The notes: generated by a model not told the origin, from the letters alone. A DNA stretch of 64,000 nucleotides from Methanolobus chelungpuianus (GCF_024500045.1 NZ_JTEO01000001.1:62001-126000); one strand, 5' to 3'. Counted from the stretch's first letter, positions 40,641 through 55,380 are shown. Program-made: numbers and translations.

Positions 40641-41762
40641 TTAAAAGAGCACTATCCTGTTCATGTCAATGCGGATCCTGCAGGCATCTCCGGTCTGGAG
40701 ACCCCTGTTCTCCAGAAGCTGATTTGGCACTTCAGCAAAAAGCAGGTCCTGATGCTCAGGCACTTCAAGAGCCATCAGTCTGCTCGATCCCTTATTGATC
40801 GTGCTCCTCACAGATGCGCTGAAAATATTGCTCTCCTGTGTAGTGCCTTCCATATCTTCCCGGAGAATACGGATGTTCTCAGGCCGGATGCCCCAGGATG
40901 TCCTGTCCCCTGTTCTCAGTCCGGTATTGTTGGCTTTTATCAGCATTTCCCCGCTCTTCAAAAGGACAGTGCCCGACCCGTTATCCGCTTCCACCACTAC
41001 GGCGTCGCCGAAGATGTTGGACATGCCCACAAGTTCGGCAACATGCCTGTTGTTGGGATGGTAGAATACTTCCTCGGGCGTGCCTGTCTGCTGCACGCGC
41101 CCTTCATGGAAAACCACCACCTTATCAGCTATTGTGAAAGCTTCCACATGGTTGTGCGTGATAAAGAGTACCGGTATCCCGAGCTCTCTCTGTATCTGCT
41201 TGATCCTTTCCCGGAGTTTCATGCGGACGATCATGTCCAGCGCCGAGAAGGGTTCGTCCAGCAGCAGGATATCGGGTTTCGGGGCCAGCGCGCGGGCCAG
41301 CGCTACCCTTTGTTTCTGTCCTCCCGACAGCTGCGAGGGGTAATTGTCCTCAAGGCCCTCGATATGGAGCAGGTGCAGCATCTCCCGGACCCTTCTGTCC
41401 TTTTCCTCCTCGCCCCATCCTTTCAGGCCGTAGGCTATGTTCTTTTTGACATCCATGTGGGGGAAAAGGGCATAGTTCTGGAAAACGTAGCCTAGACTGC
41501 GTTCCTGGACCGGAAGGTTGATCTGCTTATGGCAGTCGAAGTACGTCCTGTCATTGACTATTATCTTACCGCCATTTGGTTCCAGCAGCCCTGATATGCA
41601 CTGGAGGGTCGTGGTCTTCCCGGAACCGGAGCGTCCGAAAAGTACCACCAGCTCGTTGCCGGCCTCGAACTTGGCATCAAGCAGGAAAGCCGGCTCTATA
41701 CCTCTCTTCTTATCGCTCTTCTTCCTGTAGTACCGTTTCCTGAAATCCACTCTGATGCCCAT
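40641..41762 (-). CDS. modC: Molybdate/tungstate ABC transporter ATP-binding protein
   Basis: A 373-residue ATPase that powers uptake through ModB. Walker A GRSGSGKT at 43-50, Q-loop VFQNYALFPH, signature LSGGQKQR, Walker B LLLDEPFSALD, and switch His in FITHNHVEA. The C-terminal 130 residues form TOBE-type domains (TSWGIRPENIRIL, then FSASVRSTINKGSSRLMALEVPEH), usual for ModC and thought to bind oxyanion. The N-terminal 20 residues are unusually basic. It follows modB by nine bases; a molybdate rather than tungstate preference is not readable from sequence. Confidence 0.93.
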   Translation of the reverse strand: MGIRVDFRKRYYRKKSDKKRGIEPAFLLDAKFEAGNELVVLFGRSGSGKTTTLQCISGLLEPNGGKIIVNDRTYFDCHKQINLPVQERSLGYVFQNYALFPHMDVKKNIAYGLKGWGEEEKDRRVREMLHLLHIEGLEDNYPSQLSGGQKQRVALARALAPKPDILLLDEPFSALDMIVRMKLRERIKQIQRELGIPVLFITHNHVEAFTIADKVVVFHEGRVQQTGTPEEVFYHPNNRHVAELVGMSNIFGDAVVVEADNGSGTVLLKSGEMLIKANNTGLRTGDRTSWGIRPENIRILREDMEGTTQESNIFSASVRSTINKGSSRLMALEVPEHQDLLFAEVPNQLLENRGLQTGDACRIRIDMNRIVLF

Positions 41763-41771
41763 ACTTCCTCC

Positions 41772-42443
41772 TCATATCCTCCAGCTGTTAACAAGTTTTG
41801 CAGTCACGGCCATGGAAAGGAAAGATATTGCCACGAGTATGATGACCAGCATATTGGCAAGCTCGCTGTTGCCTGCCTGGAATGCGCTGTATATAGAGAT
41901 CGACATTGTGTTGGTCCTTCCCGGGATATTGCCGGCGACCATGAGCGTTGCACCGAATTCCCCCACGGCCCTTGCAAAGCTCAGGACGATGCCTGCAAGT
42001 ATGCCCTTTCTGGCAAGCGGGAGCGTAATGAAGAGTGCAGTGTCAAGCTCCTTCCTTCCCAGGGTGAATGCTGCATATTCGAAATCCCTGTCCACGGCCT
42101 CGATGGCTGCCGTGGTGGTCTTGACCATCAGCGGAATAGACACTATGAAAGCCGCAATGGCAGCGGCCTCCCAGGTGAATAGTATGCTCCATCCTGTTAT
42201 GTTGTACAATATGCTGCCAAGAAAGCCGTTCCTGCCCAGGAGCACCACCAGCAGGTAACCTGTCACCGTGGGTGGAAGCACAAGGGGTAAAGTAACAAAG
42301 ATGTCTGCAAGCCATTTTCCCCTGAAATCACGTCTTGCGAGTATATATGATATGATCACGCCTGCCAGCGCCACTGCAAGCGTGGATATTACCGCAATTT
42401 TCAGTGTAATTGAAAGGGGGAACCAGATCTGTTCTATCATCAC
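41772..42443 (-). CDS. modB: Molybdate/tungstate ABC transporter permease
   Basis: A 223-residue membrane permease with about five or six helices. The coupling-helix motif RAVGEFGATLMVAGNIPGRTNT is the ModB/CysT signature, and LPLVLPPTVTGYLLVVLLG is also typical. It lies between modA (91 bases upstream) and modC (nine bases downstream). An AT-rich ACATATATTTTGG just upstream and an inverted repeat in the modA-modB gap may influence its expression. Confidence 0.94.
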   Translation of the reverse strand: MMIEQIWFPLSITLKIAVISTLAVALAGVIISYILARRDFRGKWLADIFVTLPLVLPPTVTGYLLVVLLGRNGFLGSILYNITGWSILFTWEAAAIAAFIVSIPLMVKTTTAAIEAVDRDFEYAAFTLGRKELDTALFITLPLARKGILAGIVLSFARAVGEFGATLMVAGNIPGRTNTMSISIYSAFQAGNSELANMLVIILVAISFLSMAVTAKLVNSWRI

Positions 42444-42472
42444 TTACATTCCAAAATATATGTCCTGAATCC

Positions 42473-42512
42473 TTATGTCCCCAATATAGATTTACTTTTG
42501 TTCCGGACATAA
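42473..42512 (-). repeat. Inverted repeat in the modA-modB gap
   Basis: TTATGTCC (42473-42480) and GGACATAA (42505-42512) are exact reverse complements separated by 24 bases, between the modA stop and the modB start. The same word TTATGTCC occurs inside the operator upstream of modA (43394-43401). It may be a second regulator site or an RNA hairpin that sets the modA:modB ratio. Confidence 0.45.
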
Positions 42513-42534
42513 CTGTCCTGTCAGGCGCTGCATC

Positions 42535-43341
42535 TCACTCGCTCTGAGGAATGCTGAACCCATATTGTTCCAGTATGGTTCTGCCGTTCTCTCCCGTCAC
42601 GAAGTCCACAAATCTCTGTGATTCTTCGAGATGCCGGGTGGATGAGACAACAGCTATTGGGTATGTGACGGGTGTGCTCACGGGGACAGAGGTTACCACT
42701 TCAATTGTATCCCGCCGTGCAGACGATGCGTCGGTGCTGAACACAAATCCCGCATCAGCTTCTCCCATTTCCACGTAGACAAGCACCTGCTTCACGTTCT
42801 CTCCCATGAGCATCTTGCCTGAAACGCTGCCCCACATCCCGGCGCTGACTAGTGATTCCCTTGCATATTTACCTGCGGGCACTGTCTCCGGATTCCCTAT
42901 CGCTATGTTCCTGACATCGGACCTCGTAAGGTCTTCCATGCCTGTGATCCCAAGACCGTTACCCTTTGGGACTATCAGCACGAGGGAGTTCTCCACGAAA
43001 TCCTCTCTTGTATCGTTATGTATCAAGCCCTTTGATGCAAGCATGTCCATCTGGTCCCGGGCAGCCGATGCAAACACATCTATGGGCGCTCCGCCCTCGA
43101 TCTGTGACCTGAGGGTTCCCGATGACGCAAAGTTGAAAACGACATCTATGCCCGGATTATCTGTTTCGAACTCCTTCTCCATTGCTGTGAAAGCTTCGGT
43201 AAGGCTTGCAGCAGAGGATACTGTTATTGTTGTGTTCTGCGTCGGCCTTGTACCTGTGTCAGTGTCCGTACATCCGCTCACAAAGAGCCCCATCGTTAAG
43301 ATGGCTGCAATAGCCAGGATCAGTTTTTTGCTTAGTGCCAT
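42535..43341 (-). CDS. modA: Molybdate/tungstate-binding lipoprotein
   Basis: A 268-residue exported solute-binding lipoprotein. Lipobox FVSGC gives Cys24. The mature part is a type II periplasmic-binding protein of the ModA group: TITVSSAASLTEAFTAMEKEFE, NFASSGTLRSQIEGGAPIDVFASA, DVRNIAIGNPETVPAGKYARE, GEADAGFVFSTDA and VTYPIAVVSSTRH. First gene of modABC. GGAGGAG before the ATG at 43341 decides the start against an open frame reaching 43428 that runs through the operator. Confidence 0.94.
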   Translation of the reverse strand: MALSKKLILAIAAILTMGLFVSGCTDTDTGTRPTQNTTITVSSAASLTEAFTAMEKEFETDNPGIDVVFNFASSGTLRSQIEGGAPIDVFASAARDQMDMLASKGLIHNDTREDFVENSLVLIVPKGNGLGITGMEDLTRSDVRNIAIGNPETVPAGKYARESLVSAGMWGSVSGKMLMGENVKQVLVYVEMGEADAGFVFSTDASSARRDTIEVVTSVPVSTPVTYPIAVVSSTRHLEESQRFVDFVTGENGRTILEQYGFSIPQSE

Positions 43342-43391
43342 GATTGTTACTCTCCTCCGGTAGCCTGAATAACGACAAAGATAATTTCCTA

Positions 43392-43415
43392 CGTTATGTC
43401 CGACTGTACATAACG
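43392..43415 (-). promoter_or_regulatory. ModE-type operator upstream of modABC
   Basis: CGTTATGT-CCGACTGT-ACATAACG is a perfect eight-base inverted repeat with an eight-base spacer. It closely resembles the bacterial ModE site, recalled as CGnTATATA-N6-8-TATATAnCG. It lies 50 bases before the modA start, exactly over the transcription start expected from the TATA box at 43433-43441, so a bound repressor would block initiation. No ModE gene is in the window. Confidence 0.65.
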
Positions 43416-43432
43416 GTCTCTTCCTCATTTTA

Positions 43433-43578: not shown

Positions 43579-44010
43579 TTACTCTTCAACAATGGTGACT
43601 TTCTTCATCTTGTCTTTTGCCTTGATCTTGTTCACGACATCCATGCCTTCGATGACCTGGCCGAAGACTGTGTGGACGCCGTCAAGGTGGGGCTGTGGCG
43701 AGTGTGTGATGAAGAACTGGCTGCCGCCGGTATCCTTGCCTGCGTGGGCCATGGAGAGCGCGCCCTTGCCGTGCTTGCGCGGGTTGCCCTTGGTTTCGCA
43801 CTTGATGCTGTAGCCTGGTCCGCCGGTGCCGTCTCCCTTGGGGCACCCGCCTTGGATAACGAAATTGGGGATGACCCTGTGGAAAGTGAGCCCGTCATAG
43901 TATCCTTTCTTTATGAGCTTCTCGAAGTTCTCCACGGTCTTTGGCGCATCCTTCTCGAACAGTTCCAGTACGATGTTGCCTTTCTCGGTTTCGATGATCG
44001 CTTTCTTCAT
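43579..44010 (-). CDS. Cyclophilin-type peptidyl-prolyl cis-trans isomerase
   Basis: A 143-residue single-domain cyclophilin, cytosolic, that speeds proline isomerisation in protein folding. Key segments are [51 protein letters not shown] and [16 protein letters not shown], containing the catalytic Arg and Phe residues. The ATG at 44010 has AGGTG upstream; a GTG at 44019 is the alternative. Its promoter region contains the palindrome that ends the pilin-like cluster. Confidence 0.96.
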
Positions 44011-44050
44011 ATGATTCACCTTATTTGCAGGTTCAATGGGCGGGATTGAT

Positions 44051-44075
44051 TTAAGGGTTTCTGTAAAACCCTTAA
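44051..44075 (-). terminator. Palindrome ending the twelve-gene pilin-like cluster
   Basis: TTAAGGGTTT-CTGTA-AAACCCTTAA, a perfect ten-base-pair stem with a five-base loop, starts nine bases after the stop codon of the last cluster gene. No strong T-tract follows. It could equally be a regulatory site for the cyclophilin gene, whose start lies 41 bases further on. Confidence 0.5.
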
Positions 44076-44083
44076 TTGCTTAC

Positions 44084-45601
44084 TTATTCGAGTGTCACTT
44101 CTACATCATTGCTTGTGATGTGCAGGTATGTGAGGACGCCGCCTCCGCCATCATAAATCAAGGTGTATGTGGACTCATCCATGTTGATCTTATTGTTTTT
44201 TTTATTCTTGTTTGGCTGTGCATTATTACCTTCCAGCCACGTACACTCGATAACACCATCCTGTGACAGGAGTTTCATATAGTGCTGGGTGATGTTATTC
44301 ACTGATTGTATGCTGTTCGCATTGCTTCCGGTGATATTAATATCCGGTGTCATTCTTGTAGGGCTGATAGGACCCCAAGAATATTCTTCATCAGATTTTT
44401 GCGAATCATATTTTAGCATATAAGTGTCATTCACAAGGTCAAGTGTACTGTTTGCTTCCTTGTTTGTAGCTGAATAAACTGGGTAAGTGCTTATGCTTTC
44501 CCATACTTCCACTTGGCTGCCGTCACCAAAAGCAGCATCTGTATATGTAATAGTTAAGCCGAGAGTATAAGGATGAGGCTGACTAACTTTTTTGACTTCA
44601 TATGTCAGAGTCTTCGTTTTTGATGTAGCAGTGATTTTTGAGCCTGCAGGGTTAAAATTGGATGCATCGGTATCTACAGCTTCTAAATAGAAAGAGAAGT
44701 TGCCGATTGGTGTGGAGTTTGACTGGTTTAACTTGCCGATCTTGAACGAATTCATCAAGGGGAATGTTCCCATCTTGGGTTTTGTATCCATCTCGATGAT
44801 AGCTGTCTTATTTCTGTGGTCAAGCATAGCAGTGGTGGTTGTCAGTGTCTCTGCATACTCTGCCCACCCGTCATAGAACTCGCTGTTAAAATAGATAAGG
44901 ATCTTATCACAGTTAAGGGGGTTTGTGAAACTATTGCCCAGGGTTGTGTTTGGGTAAAGCACCACGGGCTTATTGGAGGCCTTCACCTTCATATTCACAT
45001 TTGAACTTCCTCCGACAGAGTCACTGCCTGTCACTTTCATGATCGGGAGGGTTAAAGTCTCGCCGTTATAATGGAACTCAGGCGGCGATACCATTATAGT
45101 TCCTCCATCCGGATATCTGGACCAGATGCCTCCCCCCTCATAAGCTATGATTCTGTTTCCGGAATAGTATCTTACTTTCCCCATGGATGCATTGAATCCT
45201 GTAAAATTCTGTTCATTCTCTTCATACCATTTCCATGAATTCCAGGTTCCACGGTTCGGGTAAAAACTGTTATACCAGGAGGAATCGGAAGATAAAGCTA
45301 TAACCATTATGCTGCTCTCATTGTAGGACTCCGGGTTCCCGTGCACTGCGATATTCTCTCCCATAAGGGTAAGCGACGTTGTCTGAAGAGGAGATTCTCC
45401 AAGTGATGATTTACTTGTCCTGGAGTCAAAGACCGTAAATGCCTGTTCCACCTTCTGGGCTTTAGCCATCTCCTGAGTGTCACCAATCAAAGGTGCAGTG
45501 TAAAGGAGCATCAGACCTATCGACAACAGGCTAATAACAAGAATTATTGAGATACCGATCACGGATGAAACCGCAGTATCATTTTTCAACATGGTTTTCA
45601 A
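44084..45601 (-). CDS. Pilin-like surface protein A, module 1
   Basis: A 505-residue protein and last gene of module 1. A short polar start, then KNDTAVSSVIGISIILVISL, a hydrophobic helix like archaeal Pilin_N domains, and a long extracellular-type domain rich in Ser/Thr/Asn with many N-glycosylation-type sequons. The region from about 45 to 270 (QAFTVFDSRTSKSSLGESPLQ, YEGGGIWSRYPDGG, PEFHYNGETLTLPIMK) is homologous to protein B; about 230 more residues follow, ending YLHITSNDVEVTLE. Its counterpart in module 2 is 48922-50367. Start is TTG 45601 or ATG 45592; GGGGAGAG precedes both. Resembles haloarchaeal DUF7289-type proteins (recalled, not searched). Confidence 0.8.
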   Translation of the reverse strand: MKTMLKNDTAVSSVIGISIILVISLLSIGLMLLYTAPLIGDTQEMAKAQKVEQAFTVFDSRTSKSSLGESPLQTTSLTLMGENIAVHGNPESYNESSIMVIALSSDSSWYNSFYPNRGTWNSWKWYEENEQNFTGFNASMGKVRYYSGNRIIAYEGGGIWSRYPDGGTIMVSPPEFHYNGETLTLPIMKVTGSDSVGGSSNVNMKVKASNKPVVLYPNTTLGNSFTNPLNCDKILIYFNSEFYDGWAEYAETLTTTTAMLDHRNKTAIIEMDTKPKMGTFPLMNSFKIGKLNQSNSTPIGNFSFYLEAVDTDASNFNPAGSKITATSKTKTLTYEVKKVSQPHPYTLGLTITYTDAAFGDGSQVEVWESISTYPVYSATNKEANSTLDLVNDTYMLKYDSQKSDEEYSWGPISPTRMTPDINITGSNANSIQSVNNITQHYMKLLSQDGVIECTWLEGNNAQPNKNKKNNKINMDESTYTLIYDGGGGVLTYLHITSNDVEVTLE

Positions 45602-45616
45602 AGCTCTCCCCTTCTT

Positions 45617-46390
45617 CTAGTTTATTGTAACTATCATGGGTGAATTGGCTACATATACATCAATATTAGGATGATATTCCTTGCTCATATATATGGTTTT
45701 ATTACTGCTGTTTTCCCAGACTATTGACATCTTCAGGCTTTCATTCAGGTGTTTTTCCCATGCTTCGAAATAGTCGCTAGTCACGGAGATGTTCACGCGG
45801 GATATGTTCTCGTATCTTTCCACTCTTTTTGTCCCGCCATCTGCAGTTACACGAACAAGCCCGGAGCCCGATAAGGATGTGAGACCGTCAATCTTAGCCA
45901 CAGGTATTACTAAGGCATTATTCTCATAAGTGAAACGGGGCTCTGAGACCATCACTGCCCGTCCGTTGTTATATTTCGCCCACACACCGGTGTTCTCATA
46001 ACAAATGGTGGTATCCTGGAAGCTGTTCTCGACATTCTTTACTCTTGTACCTACAGCGGATATCATCTCAACACTGTTTGTCGAAGAGTTCCACACCCCT
46101 AAATCAACATTAATAAAATTATCTCCGGCTACAGATAAGGATCCTCCGTACATCTTCATCTCTATGGACTGAGATGGTGAGTTCCCCTGTACCACTTTGT
46201 TCATATTAAGGGCCAGTACCTCGAACCCCTGCCTGATGTTCTCTGTCTGTTGTGCCTTTTGAATGTTTTCAAGCATTGGTGCGCCGGTAACTACTATTAC
46301 TCCTATGGCAAGGAGCATTATGCTCAGGATGATGCTGAAATCCACCATTTCGGAAACCGCATCCTCTGACTTTGTAAATATACTTTTCAT
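45617..46390 (-). CDS. Pilin-like surface protein B, module 1
   Basis: A 257-residue protein. SEDAVSEMVDFSIILSIMLL marks the pilin-like N-terminus and helix, followed by QQTENIRQGFEVLALNMNKV, GNSPSQSIEMKMYGGSLSV, YENTGVWAKYNNGRAVMVSE and a C-terminal NVDVYVANSPM-like strand region. It is homologous to protein A without the C-terminal extension. AGGAGGAGCTTT precedes the ATG at 46390, which rules out the open frame upstream. It sits 15 bases before gene A and 16 bases after gene C. Function unknown; probably a surface filament or envelope component. Confidence 0.8.
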   Translation of the reverse strand: MKSIFTKSEDAVSEMVDFSIILSIMLLAIGVIVVTGAPMLENIQKAQQTENIRQGFEVLALNMNKVVQGNSPSQSIEMKMYGGSLSVAGDNFINVDLGVWNSSTNSVEMISAVGTRVKNVENSFQDTTICYENTGVWAKYNNGRAVMVSEPRFTYENNALVIPVAKIDGLTSLSGSGLVRVTADGGTKRVERYENISRVNISVTSDYFEAWEKHLNESLKMSIVWENSSNKTIYMSKEYHPNIDVYVANSPMIVTIN

Positions 46391-46406
46391 AAAGCTCCTC
46401 CTGTTT

Positions 46407-46898
46407 TTAGCAGATCTCCAGCATGTTTGAGGTCGTATTATAATGCAAAATGAAATCACTTGAGCCACTGTATATTTTTGTGGGCTTGATACTGACTTCT
46501 CTGGTGGTGTACGATACGCTGACCCTTGTTTCTTCCCTTTCTTCAGACTCAAATATTATCTCTTTAGGATGGTCGGAGAACTCCACTGAGTACTCCTTGT
46601 TTGCTATTGTATCCGGGAGTGTTAGCTGGTAAGCAATATTTTCCACTTTTCCCCCGGTGTTGTTGGTTAACTGGACAGCCGTATCAATATTTGATATCTG
46701 CAAAGAGATGTCGTTGCCATGGATCTCAAACTCATCGCGCATTACGGTATGTTCTGCCCTGTCCATTAGAGCGTAGAAAGAGTTAATCAAAACGATTGTG
46801 GCTATGACTGTGATCGTAAGAGTAAGTATAAATCCTACTGACAGAGATACTGCCCTGTCGTCAAGGACCAGATTTCTGCTGGCAATTCTCGGAGTCAT
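46407..46898 (-). CDS. Pilin-like surface protein C, module 1
   Basis: A 163-residue protein: LDDRAVSLSVGFILTLTITV begins a single N-terminal helix, followed by SFYALMDRAEHTVMRDEFEIHGNDI, a segment nearly identical in the module 2 copy, and a beta-rich C-terminal half. Its ATG overlaps the stop codon of gene D by four bases (ATGA), as in module 2. Resembles small haloarchaeal pilin-like families (DUF7266-like from memory). Role unknown. Confidence 0.8.
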   Translation of the reverse strand: MTPRIASRNLVLDDRAVSLSVGFILTLTITVIATIVLINSFYALMDRAEHTVMRDEFEIHGNDISLQISNIDTAVQLTNNTGGKVENIAYQLTLPDTIANKEYSVEFSDHPKEIIFESEEREETRVSVSYTTREVSIKPTKIYSGSSDFILHYNTTSNMLEIC

Positions 46899-47713
46899 AT
46901 CTGCCCCTGCGGTAATGTTATAGGTATCGTTACGTTCATTTCCAGATGGCCGTTCTTATTAAGCGACATAGTGGCATTGAGTACATGGTATCTTCTGATC
47001 TCAAAGGGCTTTCCGTTGGTCAGATTTCCTGCTAAAGAAAAAGTCCCGCCAGCCTGGCTGCCGTTTACAATCCGGATTTTGTATTGCTCCCCTGCTGTCA
47101 TGGTATCAAAATGAAAGTCCGTATTATTGGTTAGATTTATATAGCCACTACCAATAGGCACAGTACGCAATATGTTCGTGCTGTTGCTGTCTGTAACATT
47201 GGCATAGTACATGCCACTGGAATTGAATATTCTGACTGACCAGAACATGCCTGAATGGTTGAGCGCCTCCACAACAAGGCAGTTTGGCTCATTTCCGATT
47301 GTTGATGTGTTTATTTCTAGCTCAAAGACATCAGTTTTGTTAACTCTCTCGACGACAGTCCATTCAGATTTCCCGTTACTTAGGCCATTCGCTGTGAAAT
47401 ATGGCTCCTGTAATGGACCATTACTCAGCTTGAATATAAAACCTGAAGGAGCATAACTGGTTGCCATTATATTTGTATAATTTGAAATATATGAACTGTC
47501 AATTGAGCTTCCGGTATAGGCTTTTTCGTAAGCCTGAGTAGTGATTTTCATCGTATTGGCGAAATCGAATACATTAGTTTCAATATTTGCTTCTGATGCA
47601 GTATTACTTGCATAAATTATATTATTGAGCATGACTGTCAGGACAACAATCCCCATCCCTATGGCAAAACCGGCGATCAATATCATCTGTGCAGAGTTAT
47701 TCCACTTTTTCAT
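46895..47713 (-). CDS. Pilin-like surface protein D, module 1
   Basis: A 272-residue protein starting MKKWNNSAQMILIAGFAIGMGIVV: a short polar lead with A-Q at the likely processing point and one strong helix, then NNIIYASNTASEANIETN, a helical neck, and an Asn/Ser/Thr-rich beta domain with several sequons (for example NHSGMFW, NSSGMYY). GAGGAT precedes the ATG. Base composition is visibly more AT-rich than in the module 2 copy. No ligand or catalytic motif seen. Confidence 0.8.
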   Translation of the reverse strand: MKKWNNSAQMILIAGFAIGMGIVVLTVMLNNIIYASNTASEANIETNVFDFANTMKITTQAYEKAYTGSSIDSSYISNYTNIMATSYAPSGFIFKLSNGPLQEPYFTANGLSNGKSEWTVVERVNKTDVFELEINTSTIGNEPNCLVVEALNHSGMFWSVRIFNSSGMYYANVTDSNSTNILRTVPIGSGYINLTNNTDFHFDTMTAGEQYKIRIVNGSQAGGTFSLAGNLTNGKPFEIRRYHVLNATMSLNKNGHLEMNVTIPITLPQGQI

Positions 47714-47737
47714 ACAATATCCTCTAACTTTTAATGA

Positions 47738-48376
47738 TTACATACGCCACAGGGTTAGCTTTACATCTACTACATTATAGAAATCTGTACCTGTATCGGC
47801 ATCCCTAATACCTGTGTTCTGTCTGAAAGATGAAGGGTCCATATTAGGAAAATCAGTATCCGATAAGAGTATCCTTTTGGTGATTATCACGGCGTTATCC
47901 GAAGGTTCCCCGTTGTAGATATATTTCTCCCATCTATATGTGTACTTATGGGAATCCTTGAGATCCTCTCTTAGCCATGCAACTTCTACGTTATGTGCTA
48001 TTCCTTTTCCAGCTGCGACAGTTTTTAGTATTTCTGCAGTTGAACTGTTTGTAAGCACATCGCCGTTTACTGAGCTATATTCACAGGAGTCCCATGTATA
48101 ATATGCTCCATCCCAGTTCAGTATGTCTCTTTTGAGAGGCGAGTCCTGTCCGTATTCGGCATAATCCAGTGAGTTAAGCATGTCCTGACCCAGTATCTGC
48201 AACTGCGCTTCTATATGTGCATTGGCTGTAGAGGAAGTAAGTGGGGTCAGGGATGTCGCCTGGACAGTAAAAATAATCACGCCAATTATCAGTAACAATG
48301 CCATTAAGGCTTCAAGTGTGTATATCTGAGCAGAAGGGTTTGACTTAAAGGCAGCAGTAATTTTTTTTTTCAGCAT
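47738..48376 (-). CDS. Pilin-like surface protein E, module 1
   Basis: A 212-residue protein: a basic lead, then SNPSAQIYTLEALMALLLII, a class III signal-like segment with Gln after Ala and Glu at +6. The neck after the helix, VQATSLTPLTSSTANAHIEA, is identical in the module 2 copy, and LKRDILNWDGAYY is nearly so. The C-terminal half is beta-rich (YIYNGEPSDNAVIITKRI). GGTGA before the ATG at 48376 favours it over the GTG at 48385, which would overlap the end of gene F. Confidence 0.82.
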   Translation of the reverse strand: MLKKKITAAFKSNPSAQIYTLEALMALLLIIGVIIFTVQATSLTPLTSSTANAHIEAQLQILGQDMLNSLDYAEYGQDSPLKRDILNWDGAYYTWDSCEYSSVNGDVLTNSSTAEILKTVAAGKGIAHNVEVAWLREDLKDSHKYTYRWEKYIYNGEPSDNAVIITKRILLSDTDFPNMDPSSFRQNTGIRDADTGTDFYNVVDVKLTLWRM

Positions 48377-48378
48377 GT

Positions 48379-48846
48379 TCACCACACTCTTACAGATAGA
48401 ACTGCATCCGAAGTATTACCGTCACTTTCATTCCTCAGCATCACTACCCTTATTGTCTGCCCTATATTCCCGTGTGATGGCAGTGGCTTTCCTGCAGATC
48501 TGATAATTCCTGTGGTATTCTCTAGTGTGACGTTAATATCATACCTCAGGTAAGTCCCATTCATCCCCAGCAAGTCAACAGTATCCTGGTAGTTACTGTC
48601 AGCATAGTTAAAGAAATCATCAACTCTGGTGCCATTCAGGAGATTGGTTGCTCCGGGCATGCCTGCACTCATATTCTGCTCAATTATGTTTGTCGAAACC
48701 CTGTCGGCTATCAATGTGACCTCATCTGAGTTTGACTGGAATGGGGTAAACAACCCGGATGTATAATTGAATACAAAGATAATACTGATCAGGAATATTG
48801 CAATCCCTATAAGATAATCTATGTGCATCTGACCTTTATTATCCAT
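48379..48846 (-). CDS. Pilin-like surface protein F, module 1 (first gene)
   Basis: A 155-residue protein with the clearest prepilin-type start: MDNKG followed by QMHIDYLIGIAIFLISII, i.e. KG/Q with an acidic residue at +5, matching archaeal class III signal peptides. After the helix comes SGLFTPFQSNSDEVTLIADR, almost unchanged in the module 2 copy, then a small beta domain ending VLSVRVW. First gene of module 1; GGAG and a TATA-like box precede it. Resembles haloarchaeal DUF7287-type proteins from memory. Confidence 0.82.
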   Translation of the reverse strand: MDNKGQMHIDYLIGIAIFLISIIFVFNYTSGLFTPFQSNSDEVTLIADRVSTNIIEQNMSAGMPGATNLLNGTRVDDFFNYADSNYQDTVDLLGMNGTYLRYDINVTLENTTGIIRSAGKPLPSHGNIGQTIRVVMLRNESDGNTSDAVLSVRVW

Positions 48847-48872
48847 GATACTCCATATAAATATTCAATTTA

Positions 48873-48884
48873 TTATATAAAAAG
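48873..48884 (-). promoter_or_regulatory. TATA-like box of module 1
   Basis: TTTTTATATAAT on the minus strand, centred about 31 bases before the ATG of gene F. The 75-base gap between modules 2 and 1 is very AT-rich. Transcription would begin only a few bases before the ATG. Confidence 0.45.
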
Positions 48885-48921
48885 CTACTTGCTAAACCTT
48901 AAGGGATGATTTTAACGTTAT

Positions 48922-50367
48922 TCAACTGAGAGTAACCTCAAGATCGTTCCTGCTCACATGCAGGTAAGTGATACTTCCCGGCATCCCGTCATACAATAGC
49001 GTGAGTGTTGATTCTGAATAATCTACGGGATCAGAGCTTCCCGGGGATTGAATGTTGAATATGACCGAACCGTCCATGGTGAGGAGCTTCATGTAATGCT
49101 GGGATACGGTATTCAGCGACTGGGTTTTATTTATATTGTCTTTTGTAATAACCAGATCCGGCCATGAAAAATCCCCGTTTCTTGAAATATATGCCATATT
49201 AATGGAAGAACTCAAAAGATCTACCGTCGCTGACTGATCCGCCTGTGTGCCGCTTATCGGGAAATAATCTGCACTGGTGGCTCCTTGCCAAGTTTCAGTT
49301 GTACTGCTGATGGCAGTATCCTTATATGCAATTTCAAGATTTAAGCGGGAGTTGCCGCTTTTCTGCACATAGTATGTAAGGGTCTTCGAACCGGATGTGG
49401 CAGTTATCTGATAATTGTTAGGATTCAATCCCTGACTTGATTTTGCTTCGAGGTTGAACTTGAAATCCCACATTGGTGCAGGGTTTGTGTCATTGAGGGT
49501 ACCAATCTTAAACGTCTGCTTAAGCTGGTCCTTTCCCATTTCAGGCAGCACTTCCAGTTCCACGATGGCAGTCTGGTTTGCATCATCGGTTGTTGCACTG
49601 GCATAGGTGAGGGAATTGGCGTAATCGGCCCAGGCAGTGTAGAATTCGCTCTTTATGTAGATGAGTACTTTATCCGAGCTGAGTGGGTTCACTTTCTTTG
49701 TACTGCTGGGGTCCGGATAGAGGACAGTAGGCATGTTGTTGGAATTCACGGTCACTGCAACATCGGTCCTTCCGCTGAAAACTTCGTTTCCTTTTATTTT
49801 CATTATCGGCAGGGTCAGGGTCTCTCCGTTATAGTGGAATTCGGGTGGAGATATCATAACTGCTTTTCCTGTAGGGTATTTTGACCAGACACCGCCCCCT
49901 TCATAACCGATGATGCGGTCTCCCTGCGTATAGGTAATGCTTCCCATTGGTGACTCGAACACAGTCATGTTTGGCTGACTTTCGTAAGGCTCCCAACTGT
50001 TCCAGTTGAATCTGTTGTTCATAAAACTAGTGTACCATGATCCCTCGCTGAGCTGGGCACATACCACTACGATCTGGCTGTTCTGATAGGCATTTGCATC
50101 TCCCTTGACACTGACACTTCCGTCCATTATGGAGAAGGATGTTGTCTGGCTTGGTGATTCTCCCAGTGCCACCTTGCTTGTCCTGGAGTCGAATACGGTA
50201 AATGCCTGCTCAGCCCTCTGAGCTGTGGCCATTTCCTGCATGTTTTTCATTGAAGGAGCTGAATACAGGAGGATGACGCTTGTAGATGTAATCGTCAGTG
50301 CAAGGATTATCATGACTCCTACTACTGCAGACACAGCTTTTTCAGACCGGAGCAAATTTTGAACCAC
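48922..50367 (-). CDS. Pilin-like surface protein A', module 2
   Basis: A 481-residue counterpart of the module 1 A protein. RSEKAVSAVVGVMIILALTI begins the helix; EQAFTVFDSRTSK, GESPSQTTS, RIIGYEGGGVWSKYPTGKAV, EFHYNGETLTLPIMKI and the ending YLHVSRNDLEVTLS align throughout. It is beta-rich with many Asn/Ser/Thr. GAGGT eight bases before the GTG at 50367 sets the start; an in-frame TTG at 50385 would overlap gene B'. Last gene of module 2, 75 bases before module 1. Confidence 0.8.
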   Translation of the reverse strand: MVQNLLRSEKAVSAVVGVMIILALTITSTSVILLYSAPSMKNMQEMATAQRAEQAFTVFDSRTSKVALGESPSQTTSFSIMDGSVSVKGDANAYQNSQIVVVCAQLSEGSWYTSFMNNRFNWNSWEPYESQPNMTVFESPMGSITYTQGDRIIGYEGGGVWSKYPTGKAVMISPPEFHYNGETLTLPIMKIKGNEVFSGRTDVAVTVNSNNMPTVLYPDPSSTKKVNPLSSDKVLIYIKSEFYTAWADYANSLTYASATTDDANQTAIVELEVLPEMGKDQLKQTFKIGTLNDTNPAPMWDFKFNLEAKSSQGLNPNNYQITATSGSKTLTYYVQKSGNSRLNLEIAYKDTAISSTTETWQGATSADYFPISGTQADQSATVDLLSSSINMAYISRNGDFSWPDLVITKDNINKTQSLNTVSQHYMKLLTMDGSVIFNIQSPGSSDPVDYSESTLTLLYDGMPGSITYLHVSRNDLEVTLS

Positions 50368-50377
50368 TATAAAACCT

Positions 50378-51166
50378 CTACTCAATAGTTACACTCATCG
50401 GGGATAATGTTATAAGCACATCTATTCCGGGGTTATAACTCCGGCTGACGGATACTGTCTTATTCTGGTGATCCACACTATCGACACCCATTTCCAAAGT
50501 CTCATTAAGGTACTTTCCCCAGCCTTCATAATAGTCGCTGGTGATTGTCAGGCTAACCATGGATACGTTCTCGTACATTGATACTGATATCTGCCCTCCC
50601 TGCGAGACCACCCGGGTCAGGCCTGAGCCAGATATGCTCCTGGATCCTGAAATAGTTACCATGGGGATAAGCAAGGTATTATCGTAGTATGCAAAATCCG
50701 GTTTGGAGATAGCCACCGACATTCCCTGCGGATATCTGGCCCATGTGCCTGTGTTCTCATAGGCTACATTATTCTCTCCATACTGATTCTCGATCGTCCT
50801 CATCTGCCTTTCAATGGAACGGGTATTATACGCTGAACTGCTGCTGTTCCATACCCGCATGCTCACATTCATGCGACTGGTCCCTGCGACAGATACCTGG
50901 CTCCCGTACATTTTAAGTTCCACTGATTGTGACGGTGCTTTCCCGTATGCCACTTTGTTGATATTGGGCTGCAGCACAGAGAAGCTCTGCTCAATGTTGA
51001 GGAGATGCCCTCTCTCCTGCATGTGTTCAAGCATGGGATATCCTGCAACACCAATCACGCCAAGCGCCAGGACCATGATCCCAAGGGTCAGGCTGAACCC
51101 AAGCACTTCCGAGAGAGCATCTTCGGATGCAACAATGTTTTTTCCCGTCCTTCTTCTGCTGTCCAT
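50378..51166 (-). CDS. Pilin-like surface protein B', module 2
   Basis: A 262-residue counterpart of B: ASEDALSEVLGFSLTLGIMV at the helix, then NIEQSFSVLQPNINKVAYG, APSQSVELKMYGSQVSV, NVAYENTGTWARYPQGM and SDYYEGWGKYLNETLEMG. It matches the first two thirds of A', showing that A and B are themselves ancient duplicates. GAGGATG precedes the ATG at 51166, which is ten bases after the stop of C'. Confidence 0.8.
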   Translation of the reverse strand: MDSRRRTGKNIVASEDALSEVLGFSLTLGIMVLALGVIGVAGYPMLEHMQERGHLLNIEQSFSVLQPNINKVAYGKAPSQSVELKMYGSQVSVAGTSRMNVSMRVWNSSSSAYNTRSIERQMRTIENQYGENNVAYENTGTWARYPQGMSVAISKPDFAYYDNTLLIPMVTISGSRSISGSGLTRVVSQGGQISVSMYENVSMVSLTITSDYYEGWGKYLNETLEMGVDSVDHQNKTVSVSRSYNPGIDVLITLSPMSVTIE

Positions 51167-51176
51167 GCACTCATCC

Positions 51177-51650
51177 TCAGGATATCTCAATAGTGTTGTT
51201 TATGGGGTTGTAAACCATCAGGAACTCGCCTTTCGAACTGTACAGTATGGTGGGAGTAACAGTGGTGTCCCGGGTGGAATAAGGTACCTTGACCCTTGTC
51301 TCGATCCTGTCCCCAGACATGATGGTAATGTCATTTGTAGCGTTTGAGAATTCAATTGAGTACTCTTCCCCGGCGATCCTGTCCGGAAGGGATAGCCTGT
51401 AACTGATCTTTCCGATAGTGGCTCCTGCATCCTTTGCAATGCCCACTGTTGTGTCTATGGATGCTATACGGGCTGCTATGTCGCTTCCATGGATTTCGAA
51501 CTCATCCCGCATGACCGTTTGCTCTGCCTGTCCCATCATTGAATAGAAGGACGAAAGAGCGATAACAAGCACAAGAACCGTTATGGAGAATGTGAGTATG
51601 AAGCCCAGTGGGACCGATACTGCATTCTCGTCTCCTGTCAGTCCTCTCAT
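51177..51650 (-). CDS. Pilin-like surface protein C', module 2
   Basis: A 157-residue counterpart of C: GDENAVSVPLGFILTFSITV at the helix, SFYSMMGQAEQTVMRDEFEI after it, and a beta-rich half with TPTILYSSKGEFLMVYNP. The ATG overlaps the stop of D' by four bases, exactly as between C and D of module 1. No cysteine and no catalytic motif. Confidence 0.8.
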   Translation of the reverse strand: MRGLTGDENAVSVPLGFILTFSITVLVLVIALSSFYSMMGQAEQTVMRDEFEIHGSDIAARIASIDTTVGIAKDAGATIGKISYRLSLPDRIAGEEYSIEFSNATNDITIMSGDRIETRVKVPYSTRDTTVTPTILYSSKGEFLMVYNPINNTIEIS

Positions 51651-52516
51651 GATATCCCTCCCGGCAGGATTATGGGTACTGTCCTGTTAATGCTCATCTG
51701 GCCGGAGCTCATCCTCAGTGTGGGATTCGCTACTTGGTGCCTCATAATTGTGAATGGATGGCCGGACGTAAGGTTCCCGGATATAGTGCACATGCCACCT
51801 GTGCTGTTTCCATTATAGATGTTTATCGAATAGTCCTGGCCTGCAGATGTCGGATAGTTGAACGAAGGAACCCCTGCCCCATTGATCTGGTTGCCTGTTA
51901 TGTTTATTTCCAGCGGTGTTACTGCTGTTACATTACGGTAACTGGGTATTGATGAGCTGACTATGACAGTTATATTTATAGTTCCGCTTGTATTGTACAT
52001 CCTCATTAGCCACAGGCTACTCCCGCTATGATTGACTGCTTCAATAACAAGAGGATTGGATTCATTCCCCATACTCGAGGTATTTGGTGTAAGATAGAAT
52101 ACTTCAGCAGTATCTACATTGCTCACAAGGGTCCAGTTACTTTTCCCTTCTGCAAGCCCGTTGTGGGTGAAATAGGGTTCTGAATAATCATGGTCCTGCA
52201 GGTGGAATGTGAAACCTGCTATCGCATAGTTCTGTGAGGCTTTCCTGGAATAGGATTCAATATACTTCCTATACTGAGTGTCATCAGTAGTATTATTACT
52301 GCCGTCCAGGGCGTATCTGTAGGCATCCTGATATGCTTCAGTAGTTGTCTGGATGGCATTGGCAATATCATAACGTGAGGTATCGATACTTGATTCCGAG
52401 GCCATGTTGCTGGCGTATATCACATTGTTCAGCATAACCGTTATCACAACTATGCCTACTCCGATGGCGAATCCTGCTATGAGCAGCAACTGTGCGGAAT
52501 CATTGAAACTTTTCAT
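51647..52516 (-). CDS. Pilin-like surface protein D', module 2
   Basis: A 289-residue counterpart of D: MKSFNDSAQLLLIAGFAIGV, VIYASNMASESSIDTS, then a domain with an insertion around the YRYALDGSNNTTDDTQYRKY stretch absent from D. The C-terminal region GGMCTISGNLTSGHPFTIMR matches D's GGTFSLAGNLTNGKPFEIRR, and both end in an IxLPxG motif. GGAGGATG lies upstream of the ATG. Confidence 0.8.
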   Translation of the reverse strand: MKSFNDSAQLLLIAGFAIGVGIVVITVMLNNVIYASNMASESSIDTSRYDIANAIQTTTEAYQDAYRYALDGSNNTTDDTQYRKYIESYSRKASQNYAIAGFTFHLQDHDYSEPYFTHNGLAEGKSNWTLVSNVDTAEVFYLTPNTSSMGNESNPLVIEAVNHSGSSLWLMRMYNTSGTINITVIVSSSIPSYRNVTAVTPLEINITGNQINGAGVPSFNYPTSAGQDYSINIYNGNSTGGMCTISGNLTSGHPFTIMRHQVANPTLRMSSGQMSINRTVPIILPGGIS

Positions 52517-52523
52517 GCGATCA

Positions 52524-53141
52524 CTACATCCTCCAGAGCATCATCTTTACATTGACGACGTTGTAGAACTCTGTGCTATTATCTGCATCAGGAATGCCCG
52601 TACTTTTCATGAATTCGGTTGCGTTGCCGACATCCGCATTGGACAATTGTACTCTTTTTGATATCACCACGGCGTTATTGGAAGGGTCCCCGTTGTATAT
52701 GTATCTCCTCGATACGGAGACGCCTTCTTCGTTGACCCAGCCGAAGTATACATTATGGGCTATTCCTCTCTTGACCGCAACGGCTTCCAGTGTCCTTGCA
52801 AGTGAGCTTTGCTGAAGCTCATGGGTTGGTGTTCTTACGGTCTTGTAAATAGTGCCGTTCCAGACATACTGCTCACCGTCCCAGTTCAGGATATCAGTCT
52901 TCAGTGCCGAATCCCTCCCATAAGGCGAGTATGAGAGTGCATTGAGCATGTCCTGACCCATTGTCTGTAGCTGGGCCTCTATGTGGGCATTGGCAGTGGA
53001 AGATGTAAGGGGGGTAAGTGAAGTTGCCTGCACGGTGTACACTATAATGGCGACCATAATGAGCGAGGCCATGATAGCTTCGAGTGTGTGCATCTGGGCA
53101 CGTTCCTCTTTCCCCGGCCTGAACAGCAGATCTTTCTTCAA
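52524..53141 (-). CDS. Pilin-like surface protein E', module 2
   Basis: A 205-residue counterpart of E with TTG start one base after the F' stop. A basic lead (KKDLLFRPGKEER) precedes AQMHTLEAIMASLIMVAIIV; the neck VQATSLTPLTSSTANAHIEA is unchanged between copies, followed by GQDMLNALSYSPYGRDSALK and DILNWDGEQYVW. The end NVVNVKMMLWRM corresponds to NVVDVKLTLWRM in E. Confidence 0.82.
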   Translation of the reverse strand: MKKDLLFRPGKEERAQMHTLEAIMASLIMVAIIVYTVQATSLTPLTSSTANAHIEAQLQTMGQDMLNALSYSPYGRDSALKTDILNWDGEQYVWNGTIYKTVRTPTHELQQSSLARTLEAVAVKRGIAHNVYFGWVNEEGVSVSRRYIYNGDPSNNAVVISKRVQLSNADVGNATEFMKSTGIPDADNSTEFYNVVNVKMMLWRM

Positions 53142-53142
53142 T

Positions 53143-53619
53143 TTACCACACCCTGAACGAGAGGATCAGCATTTCCGTATTGCCTGTGGCTTCATCCCTG
53201 GAGAGTATGATCCGTCTTGTCTGTCCGATGTTCACCTGAGGGGGTATCTCCTTTCCTGCACTGTAGACAATGTTGCCACTGCTGATATTCTCAGCCGTGA
53301 CGTTCAGTTCATAGCGCAGGTAGCTGCCGTTCATACCAAGGGAATTTATGGTGGACTGATAATTGGCATTATTGAGTTCACTGAAGAATTCATTCATCTT
53401 TGTAGCGTTCACAAGGTTGGGAAGGCCTTCATCTCCGGCACTGATCCTCTTTTCCACAACGTTCGTAGAGACCCTGTCCGCTATCAGCGTCACTTCATCC
53501 GAGTTGGACTGGAACGGCGTGAAAATGCCGGAGGTATAACTGAACACGAAGACAATTGCAAGCAAGAAGATCGTGATGCTTATCAGATAGTCTATGGTTA
53601 TCTGGCCTTTATCGTCCAT
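53143..53619 (-). CDS. Pilin-like surface protein F', module 2 (first gene of the cluster)
   Basis: A 158-residue counterpart of F: MDDKG then QITIDYLISITIFLLAIV, a KG/Q prepilin-like junction with Asp at +5, SGIFTPFQSNSDEVTLIADR and a beta-rich end LILSFRVW. It opens the whole twelve-gene cluster, 144 bases from the divergent mre11 start. GAGGT lies five bases before the ATG and an AT palindromic TATA-like stretch about 33 bases before. Confidence 0.83.
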   Translation of the reverse strand: MDDKGQITIDYLISITIFLLAIVFVFSYTSGIFTPFQSNSDEVTLIADRVSTNVVEKRISAGDEGLPNLVNATKMNEFFSELNNANYQSTINSLGMNGSYLRYELNVTAENISSGNIVYSAGKEIPPQVNIGQTRRIILSRDEATGNTEMLILSFRVW

Positions 53620-53644
53620 AAATACCTCAGTTACTATAATGGAG

Positions 53645-53658
53645 AATATTATAATATT
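53645..53658 (-). promoter_or_regulatory. TATA-like box of module 2
   Basis: AATATTATAATATT, almost a perfect palindrome, centred about 33 bases before the F' start, the same arrangement as in front of module 1. It may also serve the divergent mre11 gene. Confidence 0.45.
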
Positions 53659-53763
53659 CCTGTTATTTGTATGTTCTCCTTGAGCCCGATATCCTCTTCC
53701 GAAGGCAGGACGATGCTTTTAACAGGCAATCTTAAAAACGGGGAGTGCATATCATATGCCACG

Positions 53764-55380
53764 ATGGATGAAATAAGGATAATCCACACAGGGGATACTC
53801 ATTTAGGTTACCGCCAGTACCACAGTGAAGTGCGCAGGCAGGATTTTCTCGATGCATTTGCAAAGGTCATAGATGATGCTGTTGCAATGAAGGTCGATGC
53901 TGTAATTCATGCGGGCGATCTTTTCGATTCCAGGAACCCGACCCTGGATGACATACTGGAGACAATGAAACTGTTCTCCCGGCTGAAGGATGCACGGATA
54001 CCTTTACTCGCGGTGGTGGGCAATCACGAGAGCAAGCAGAGTACGCAGTGGCTCGATCTCTACGAGAGCATGGGACTTGTCATACGTCTTGGCATCACTC
54101 CTTACACGCTGGGTAATGTGGCTGTATATGGGATAGACCACGTCCCCAAGTCTCGCATTCCTATGTTTGACTATTCTGTATTCCATTCTGATAATACTAT
54201 GAATAATGCTGCTTCTGCCGAGCACAGGCTGCTTGTCATGCACCAGATGATGAAGCCCTTTGCTTTCGGGGAATGGGATGTGCAGGAAGTCCTGAACTCT
54301 CTTCCGTTCAAAGTCGATGCCGTGCTTCTTGGCGATAACCATAAGCATGAGATAATCCTCCTGAGTGAGACCTGGGTGACATATTGCGGCAGTACGGAGC
54401 GCAACGGCATCTCCGAGCTTGAGCCCCGCTCCTATAATATCGTCACAGCAGGCAGTGAGGGTATCGAGATAAGTAAAAGGATGATACCTACCAGGGATTT
54501 TGTGTTCATACCTGTCAGCCTCAGCAAGGGATCTGAAGCTTACGAGGAAATATTCTCCGCCATCAAGGAGCGTGATGTGGAGGATAAGGTAGTGTTCGTG
54601 AATATCTCTGGGGATCCTGAAATAAAGGTGAAGTTCAGTGAGATAGAGGAATTCCTGCTCTCACGCAAGGCCCTGGTACCTGGCATAAGGGACCTGAGGA
54701 CAGGCGATATTTCCGTAGAAGACCCTTCGTTATCTTTCTGTTTTACGGACCCCGATGAGGCTGTCAAAAAGGAGCTAAGGGGGATGCACCTGACCCGGGG
54801 TGGCCTGATGCTGGATGAGATAATCCGGGACCCTGTGGTGGTAAAGAGCAGGGTAGACACTGAAGTGGAAGACCGGCTTGGCGAACTGCTCGAGGGGATG
54901 GATTTCACGGACAAGGTGGATGTCCCTAAAAGGCCGGCACTGCAGGAGGATGGGTATGAGGAAGCCCTGACCCCCGGATCCCCGGAAGAAACTGCGGCTG
55001 CTGCAGAAGGGATCATCGAACCTGTCAGGGCAGATGACCTTTATGCGGTGCCAGTCAGGGAACAACAAGAACCGGCACCGGAAGCTGCAGCAGGGGTTAC
55101 AGGGAATGAAGCTGAAAGGCAGTTCCCGGATGCAAGTGGATCTGCAGGCGTCAAAGGGGCGGCTTCAGAGCACGCGGCCCCAACAGGCAGCCAGCAGCAG
55201 CTGACCCTTATCGGGAACAATAACCAGGACTATCCGGCCAGGGAGAGTGACATTCCGGAAAGTGATCCCCTCAAGAGTACCCCGGAGCCTGTTCCGGAAA
55301 AAGGACCGGAGATGCCTGAAGATAAGAAACATAAGACCGCCTCCGGACCACGGCAGTATAACCTTGGTGACTACCTATGA
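53764..55380 (+). CDS. mre11: DNA double-strand break repair nuclease Mre11
   Basis: A 538-residue nuclease subunit that trims DNA ends with Rad50. The metallophosphoesterase core is clear: IRIIHTGDTHLGYRQYHS, AVIHAGDLFDSRNPTLDD, LLAVVGNHES and LLGDNHKHE. From about residue 395 on the C-terminal tail is acidic, Pro/Glu/Ala-rich and probably disordered, ending DGDYL-like (NLGDYL), a likely Rad50-binding end. The ATG at 53764 fits the family; an in-frame ATG at 53713 is an alternative, and the frame upstream overlaps gene F'. Stop overlaps the rad50 start (ATGA). Confidence 0.94.
   Translation: MDEIRIIHTGDTHLGYRQYHSEVRRQDFLDAFAKVIDDAVAMKVDAVIHAGDLFDSRNPTLDDILETMKLFSRLKDARIPLLAVVGNHESKQSTQWLDLYESMGLVIRLGITPYTLGNVAVYGIDHVPKSRIPMFDYSVFHSDNTMNNAASAEHRLLVMHQMMKPFAFGEWDVQEVLNSLPFKVDAVLLGDNHKHEIILLSETWVTYCGSTERNGISELEPRSYNIVTAGSEGIEISKRMIPTRDFVFIPVSLSKGSEAYEEIFSAIKERDVEDKVVFVNISGDPEIKVKFSEIEEFLLSRKALVPGIRDLRTGDISVEDPSLSFCFTDPDEAVKKELRGMHLTRGGLMLDEIIRDPVVVKSRVDTEVEDRLGELLEGMDFTDKVDVPKRPALQEDGYEEALTPGSPEETAAAAEGIIEPVRADDLYAVPVREQQEPAPEAAAGVTGNEAERQFPDASGSAGVKGAASEHAAPTGSQQQLTLIGNNNQDYPARESDIPESDPLKSTPEPVPEKGPEMPEDKKHKTASGPRQYNLGDYL

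Follow-up and report, generated by a model that had tools for sequence, protein, structure and literature searches.

Two old, maintained six-gene type IV pilin sets at one Methanolobus locus and a single matching motor encoded elsewhere

The closest described relatives of the system reported here are the pili of the PilB4-type, clade-2 euryarchaeal system, which is linked to a pilin set with an assigned major pilin of its own; the same study lists many cases in which the motor is duplicated and the pilins are not (Makarova 2016, PMC4858521). A single motor working for more than one pilin set is known from Haloferax volcanii, where PilB3-C3 rescues a pilB1-C1 deletion (PMC6491452), and minor-pilin tip complexes with lectin modules have been described in Streptococcus sanguinis (PMC9934059). 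Here we analyzed a stretch of 64,000 nucleotides from Methanolobus chelungpuianus (GCF_024500045.1 NZ_JTEO01000001.1:62001-126000; hereafter the window, with positions counted from its first letter), in which a complete set of six pilin genes is present as two old, divergent tandem copies.

The locus consists of 12 successive minus-strand open reading frames (ORFs) that run twice in the order F-E-D-C-B-A. Module M1 (48922-53619) lies on the side of mre11-rad50 and module M2 (44084-48846) on the side of a peptidyl-prolyl isomerase (PPIase) gene. Proteins are named by letter and module number, so that C2 denotes the M2 protein and the contig of that name is always called contig C2:

53143..53619, minus strand: F1 (M1), DUF7287, 158 aa, pilin-like, processing motif KGQI
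52524..53141, minus strand: E1 (M1), DUF7288, 205 aa, motif RAQM
51647..52516, minus strand: D1 (M1), DUF7261-like (under the Pfam cut-off), 289 aa, motif SAQL
51177..51650, minus strand: C1 (M1), DUF7266, 157 aa, motif NAVS, with model and profile matches
50378..51190, minus strand: B1 (M1), DUF7289, at most 270 aa, likely start ATG 51166, motif DALS
48922..50385, minus strand: A1 (M1), DUF7289 and DUF7308, 487 aa, motif KAVS, a pilin part followed by a C-terminal lectin-like beta-sandwich (281-468)
48379..48846, minus strand: F2 (M2), DUF7287, 155 aa, motif KGQM
47738..48385, minus strand: E2 (M2), DUF7288, 215 aa, likely start ATG 48376, motif SAQI
46895..47713, minus strand: D2 (M2), DUF7261-like, 272 aa, motif SAQM
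46407..46898, minus strand: C2 (M2), DUF7266, 163 aa, motif RAVS
45617..46390, minus strand: B2 (M2), DUF7289, 257 aa, motif DAVS, start corrected to ATG 46390
44084..45601, minus strand: A2 (M2), DUF7289 and DUF7308, 505 aa, motif TAVS

For B2, the most likely start is ATG 46390 and not the TTG further upstream that opens the longest ORF; in E, B and A, translation probably begins at internal sites or at TTG. With the likely starts, both copies show the features that a first-pass annotation of this DNA had pointed out, namely a four-base ATGA overlap between D and C (51647-51650 and 46895-46898) and short gaps between C and B (10 bases in each module) and between B and A (16 bases in M1, 15 in M2).

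The same annotation had described two sets of pairwise similar proteins in the same order, and every comparison that we made agrees with this pairing. Proteins of the same letter share 61 (F), 56 (E), 49 (D), 48 (C), 47 (B) and 48% (A) identity between M1 and M2 in MAFFT alignments. In an all-against-all phmmer comparison of the 12 proteins, same-letter pairs scored 157-429 bits and were thus far closer to each other than to other letters, for which scores did not exceed 10 bits except between A and B (73-90 bits), which both contain DUF7289. Profile-profile alignment with hhalign gave E-values of 1e-70 to 1e-173 for the same letters, and the Pfam families likewise follow the letters (DUF7287 in F, DUF7288 in E, DUF7261 below the cut-off in D, DUF7266 in C, DUF7289 in B, DUF7289 plus DUF7308 in A); in a scan of the window proteins against NCBIfam, nothing reached the cut-off. 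Conservation between M1 and M2 is lowest in the body of D and in the lectin-like part of A. The 20-residue peptide that is unchanged between the two E proteins is also conserved in the family as a whole, and no exact DNA match between the modules exceeds 16 bases, so the identity of this peptide reflects old constraint and not a recent duplication or gene conversion.

All 12 proteins have a single hydrophobic stretch, located at the N-terminus behind a short polar leader, and a body in which Asn, Ser and Thr make up 21-32% of the residues, compared with 14-16% in two neighboring cytosolic proteins; hydrophobicity and composition thus agree with the N-terminal helix and Asn/Ser/Thr-rich body noted in the first pass. 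Class-III processing motifs are present in 12 of 12 proteins, as KGQ in F, xAQ in E and D, and xAVS or xALS in C, B and A. Among the sites listed for characterized archaeal pilins are KGQV, RAQI, RAVS and DAVS (PMC4371748), with which the KGQ, RAQ, RAVS and DAVS motifs of the window proteins coincide. Structure models were made for two of the six letters, C and A. The C model comprises a 67-residue helix (8-74) followed by a beta domain (pLDDT 88), and the A model a helix of 55 residues (19-73) followed by several beta domains (pLDDT 89). Foldseek searches with these two models gave no reliable match in the Protein Data Bank (PDB) or among viral structures, and all pointers from structure comparison to pilins and to lectin folds come from VIA re-alignment, in which the best match of C, PilA5 of Thermus thermophilus (Z 4.5), was tied with unrelated long helices. 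At the profile level, C matches solved archaeal pilins (PDB 8fj5, E 2.8e-4; Natrinema PilA2, 8gi2, E 1.3e-3), and the E profile matched no pilin among PDB sequences. Pfam, the processing motifs and the C and A models together bear out that the twelve products are type IV pilins; their processing is predicted from sequence.

Protein A carries an additional domain. Residues 281-468, which approximately cover the DUF7308 stretch, align in the VIA re-alignment with galectin/ConA-like folds, including the lectin-bearing minor pilin PilC of S. sanguinis (7oa7; Z 7.1, rmsd 3.2 over 120 residues), which is one among many galectin/ConA-like chains matched; A and PilC share no sequence match. In the model, the C-terminus of A thus resembles a lectin fold, a resemblance that is no proof of glycan binding, and we regard A as the candidate for a lectin-like tip protein in each set, where it may occupy the filament tip and bind glycans.

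Both sets are old. In each of the six single-gene trees, M2 forms one clade with support of 0.96-1.0, and in a concatenated tree, bootstrapped on 28 modules of a 58-module set, M2 and M1 are recovered with values of 100 and 98. Modules from Methanomethylovorans-like genomes fall within both clades and those of Methanoperedens outside, which places the duplication before the split of Methanolobus and Methanomethylovorans and after that of Methanoperedens. Its exact depth is soft, since the node that joins M1 and M2 against the outgroup has a bootstrap of 50 in the tree as rooted; M2 has presumably been lost in some M1-only lineages. Every gene of both modules shows a dN/dS of 0.07-0.19 against its nearest relatives, and both copies are under purifying selection. 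The earlier view that the proteins have diverged too far for a recent or artefactual duplication therefore holds, and the trees make the split older than the genus. A recent or artefactual origin is rejected by the saturation of synonymous sites between M1 and M2, the 16-base longest DNA match and these trees; gene conversion or mixing of modules has left no sign, M2 being monophyletic in each of the six gene trees; and a duplication confined to Methanolobus is rejected because two Methanomethylovorans-like genomes carry M2-type modules. In another family, probably Methanocella as judged by its position, the whole six-gene set has been duplicated in tandem independently (L125:2939-13546); the two copies there are sisters with a bootstrap of 100. 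Next to them, additional small proteins with a single helix are encoded in a cluster.

No pilus motor is encoded within 10 kb of any named Methanosarcinales locus, the window included, and no FlaI/FlaJ homologue was found at the pilin locus. The genome encodes three secretion ATPases of the PilB kind, namely that of the archaellum, whose operon on contig C4 has its own FlaI/FlaJ, one on contig C2 beside a MinD-like gene, and one on contig C5. The latter two are each accompanied by TadC and have no pilins nearby, PilA-type pilin genes lie elsewhere in the genome away from the motors, and one prepilin peptidase gene (Peptidase_A24) was recognized, so that the TadA-like ATPase, TadC and peptidase that the first-pass annotation had proposed to look for were all found. 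In several genomes of other families, homologues of all six letters stand directly beside a PilB/PilC pair that, among the pairs of the Methanolobus genome, most closely matches the one on contig C5. These families are probably haloarchaea, judging by their position in the phylum and their gene content, in keeping with the earlier statement that similar sets occur in that group. Across 64 genomes from the other genera of the family, DUF7288 and the C5 orthologue are both present in 31 and both absent in 27, with three discordant genomes on either side (p 2e-11); for the contig C2-type ATPase, 10 of the same genomes are discordant. In the other families of the order, the set likewise co-occurs with the C5 type (p 1.7e-6; C2 type, p 0.10). 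The C5 orthologue is single-copy in every Methanolobus genome in which it was found, including those with four modules.

The single C5 copy and its co-occurrence with the set lead to the model that we favor and consider probable, in which M1 and M2 are alternative pilin sets of a PilB4-type pilus, assembled in trans by the one motor of contig C5. Two old maintained sets facing one matching motor suggest a single machine able to build interchangeable filaments. Each set would be expressed from its own promoter, the prepilins of both would be trimmed by the cell's single prepilin peptidase, and both would be assembled by the lone PilB4-like ATPase/TadC pair. The shaft would consist of small PilA-like subunits (C, perhaps also F), with E, D, B and A as minor subunits for the initiation and capping of the fibre, and A, as a modular pilin with a lectin-like domain, would present an adhesive tip; keeping two sets would allow one motor to build filaments with different surfaces or tips. 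The first-pass proposal of two versions of one multi-subunit structure gains support from Pfam, the models, the trees and the loci with adjacent PilB/PilC.

Several observations weigh against this model. The co-occurrence tests count genomes irrespective of shared ancestry, and with the motor encoded away from the locus, the grounds for pairing sets and motor are co-occurrence and the linkage seen in distant relatives. A lectin-like match of about Z 7, as obtained for A, can reflect a common fold arrangement. No C5 match was obtained in two Methanolobus assemblies, G013 (70% complete) and G017 (94%). Finally, the nearly complete relative G039 lacks the C5 motor and has a decayed M1 (L136:6461-10710), with F frameshifted, B truncated beside an inserted TnpB-like ORF and A missing, while its M2 is intact at another place (L137), so M2 may use another motor. 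As G039 keeps the contig C2 motor, and as genomes with a recognized M2 also have that motor, the two modules could have separate motors, M1 using the PilB/PilC of contig C5 and M2 the second non-archaellar pair on contig C2. However, this rests on a single informative genome; the contig C2 motor also occurs in many M1-only or M1+M3 genomes (M3 being a third module, see below) and hence does not require M2, and M1 and M2 are sisters whose set adjoins C5-type motors in distant relatives. We therefore regard separate motors as unlikely. Only slightly less doubtful, in our judgment, is that the modules are co-assembled, or provide alternative minor-pilin tip complexes on a PilA-type shaft encoded elsewhere, for which the genome does carry PilA-type genes away from the motors. 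The lectin-module tips of S. sanguinis offer a precedent (PMC9934059), and the exposed parts, in D and A, are those that differ most between M1 and M2. Against this, the set has been assigned its own major pilin (PMC4858521), C is small and PilA-like by model and profile, and some relatives have the set and the C5 motor without the contig C2 motor.

The remaining explanations are far less probable. Type IV filament machines include some used for secretion or uptake, and clusters of unequal pilins are broadly similar to sets of minor pseudopilins, so the modules could form a pseudopilus that serves to secrete proteins or take up DNA instead of a surface or adhesive filament. We consider this very improbable, given the lectin-like domain of A and a locus at which no secretion substrate or uptake gene was recognized; the cell also lacks an outer membrane, which counts against a pseudopilus. 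Least credible is a redundant, leftover duplication with no functional difference. The decay of M1 in G039 and the range of one to four modules across species would fit it, but full sets of both modules are kept in many Methanolobus genomes at the low dN/dS values given above, and the M1/M2 split is kept by all six genes.

The locus varies among relatives. In other Methanolobus genomes, the same site, from the PPIase gene to mre11-rad50, contains a third divergent module, M3, which lies between M1 and M2 where these are present. M3 is found at this locus in, for example, L085:1-9277, L088:1-9320 and L139:1849-11169. M3 comprises a long F of about 320 aa, E of 175, a short D of 154, C of 147 and B of 245 aa, has no A, and is usually accompanied by an adhesin-like ORF of about 1965 codons. 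By their DUF7288 matches, the Methanolobus genomes fall into those with M1+M2 (about 12, the present genome among them), those with M1+M3 (about eight), those with three or four modules (six) and one with M3 alone at this site (L139); classes without a retrieved locus sequence were assigned by match strength and spacing. The number of modules thus varies from one to four by species, and M3 is sometimes present twice. We tentatively propose that the site is a cassette locus holding one to four modules (M1, M2, M3) that differ in their exposed domains and are served by a single motor; if so, species could gain, lose and switch the filament exterior without altering the machine. Across the phylum, DUF7288 was found in 261 of 393 genomes sampled. 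In genomes of one family (f3; e.g. G095:C26:19152-19415), a DUF7288-like N-terminus sits on ORFs of about 1470-1690 codons, possibly a giant modular pilin. Two Methanoperedens-related loci (L094:2030-14333 and L107) have head-to-head modules, one with a C of 605 aa and a D of about 555 aa, and one Methanolobus E gene (G014:C29:151957-152517) contains a single in-frame TAA, a possible pseudogene or assembly error.

The flanks and intergenic regions of the locus contain the following neighboring genes and candidate control elements:

43579..44019, minus strand: PPIase gene, bordering the locus on its M2 side in Methanolobus
52981..55380, plus strand: ORF containing mre11, bordering the M1 side and divergent from F1, with the true mre11 start well within the ORF
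55377-58037: rad50, following the mre11 ORF
48871..48884, minus strand: TATA-box-like CTTTTTATATAATA, about 25-40 bases ahead of F2, within the 75 bp that separate A1 from F2
53645..53657, minus strand: AT-rich TATA-like sequence upstream of F1, the weaker case
44051..44075, minus strand: inverted repeat TTAAGGGTTT-TACAG-AAACCCTTAA between A2 and the PPIase gene, a possible transcript end as read from the sequence

Across the modules compared, a TATA-like box precedes F in 12 of 23 M1, 12 of 13 M2 and eight of nine M3 modules, compared with shuffle means of 4.1, 3.4 and 2.8. M1 and M2 may be used under different conditions, as the first-pass annotation had surmised, and separate TATA-like boxes would make this possible. 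Downstream of the locus, positions 40641-43428 of the window appear to encode a molybdate/tungstate-type ABC transporter (ATPase, permease and binding protein).

The pilus type has been described before; new are the old, maintained duplication of a full set against a single motor, the tentatively cassette-like locus, and the candidate lectin-like tip protein. The modular-evolution proposal for archaeal pili raises the question whether a single pilus motor can work with several complete pilin sets. The present genome offers a natural test case and is simple in this respect, with one archaellum motor, two other motors, one recognized prepilin peptidase and two pilin sets. The possible lectin-tipped archaeal pilus could play a role in the attachment of methanogens to surfaces or partners.

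Among known systems, the archaellum belongs to the same superfamily of type IV filament machines, and in this genome it is encoded elsewhere with a motor of its own. The PilA pili of H. volcanii (PilB3/PilC3 and the PilB1 system; PMC6491452) are similar in that the PilA pilins are encoded apart from the motor, whereas their pilin families differ and no tandem duplication of a whole set is described there. With the PilC-bearing type 4 pilus of S. sanguinis (PMC9934059), the locus shares a large modular pilin for which a tip position is proposed, and the C-terminal part of A may correspond to the ConA-like module of PilC; unlike PilC, A is archaeal, shows no sequence match to it, belongs to a six-gene set with other partners, and is a putative glycan binder. 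Similar to PilB4-type pili, as at the pilB4 locus of H. volcanii (PMC4858521), the modules comprise several distinct pilins including duplicated members of 250-550 aa (here A and B), share families with loci that carry PilB/PilC, and occur in a genome that has a PilB/TadC motor of that kind. The DUF7289 proteins A and B are candidates for the arCOG02911 minor pilin, whose size range and duplication habit, as described, they fit. The Methanolobus system differs from these pili in that its motor is encoded off the locus and in that the whole pilin set, but not the motor, has been duplicated and long kept.

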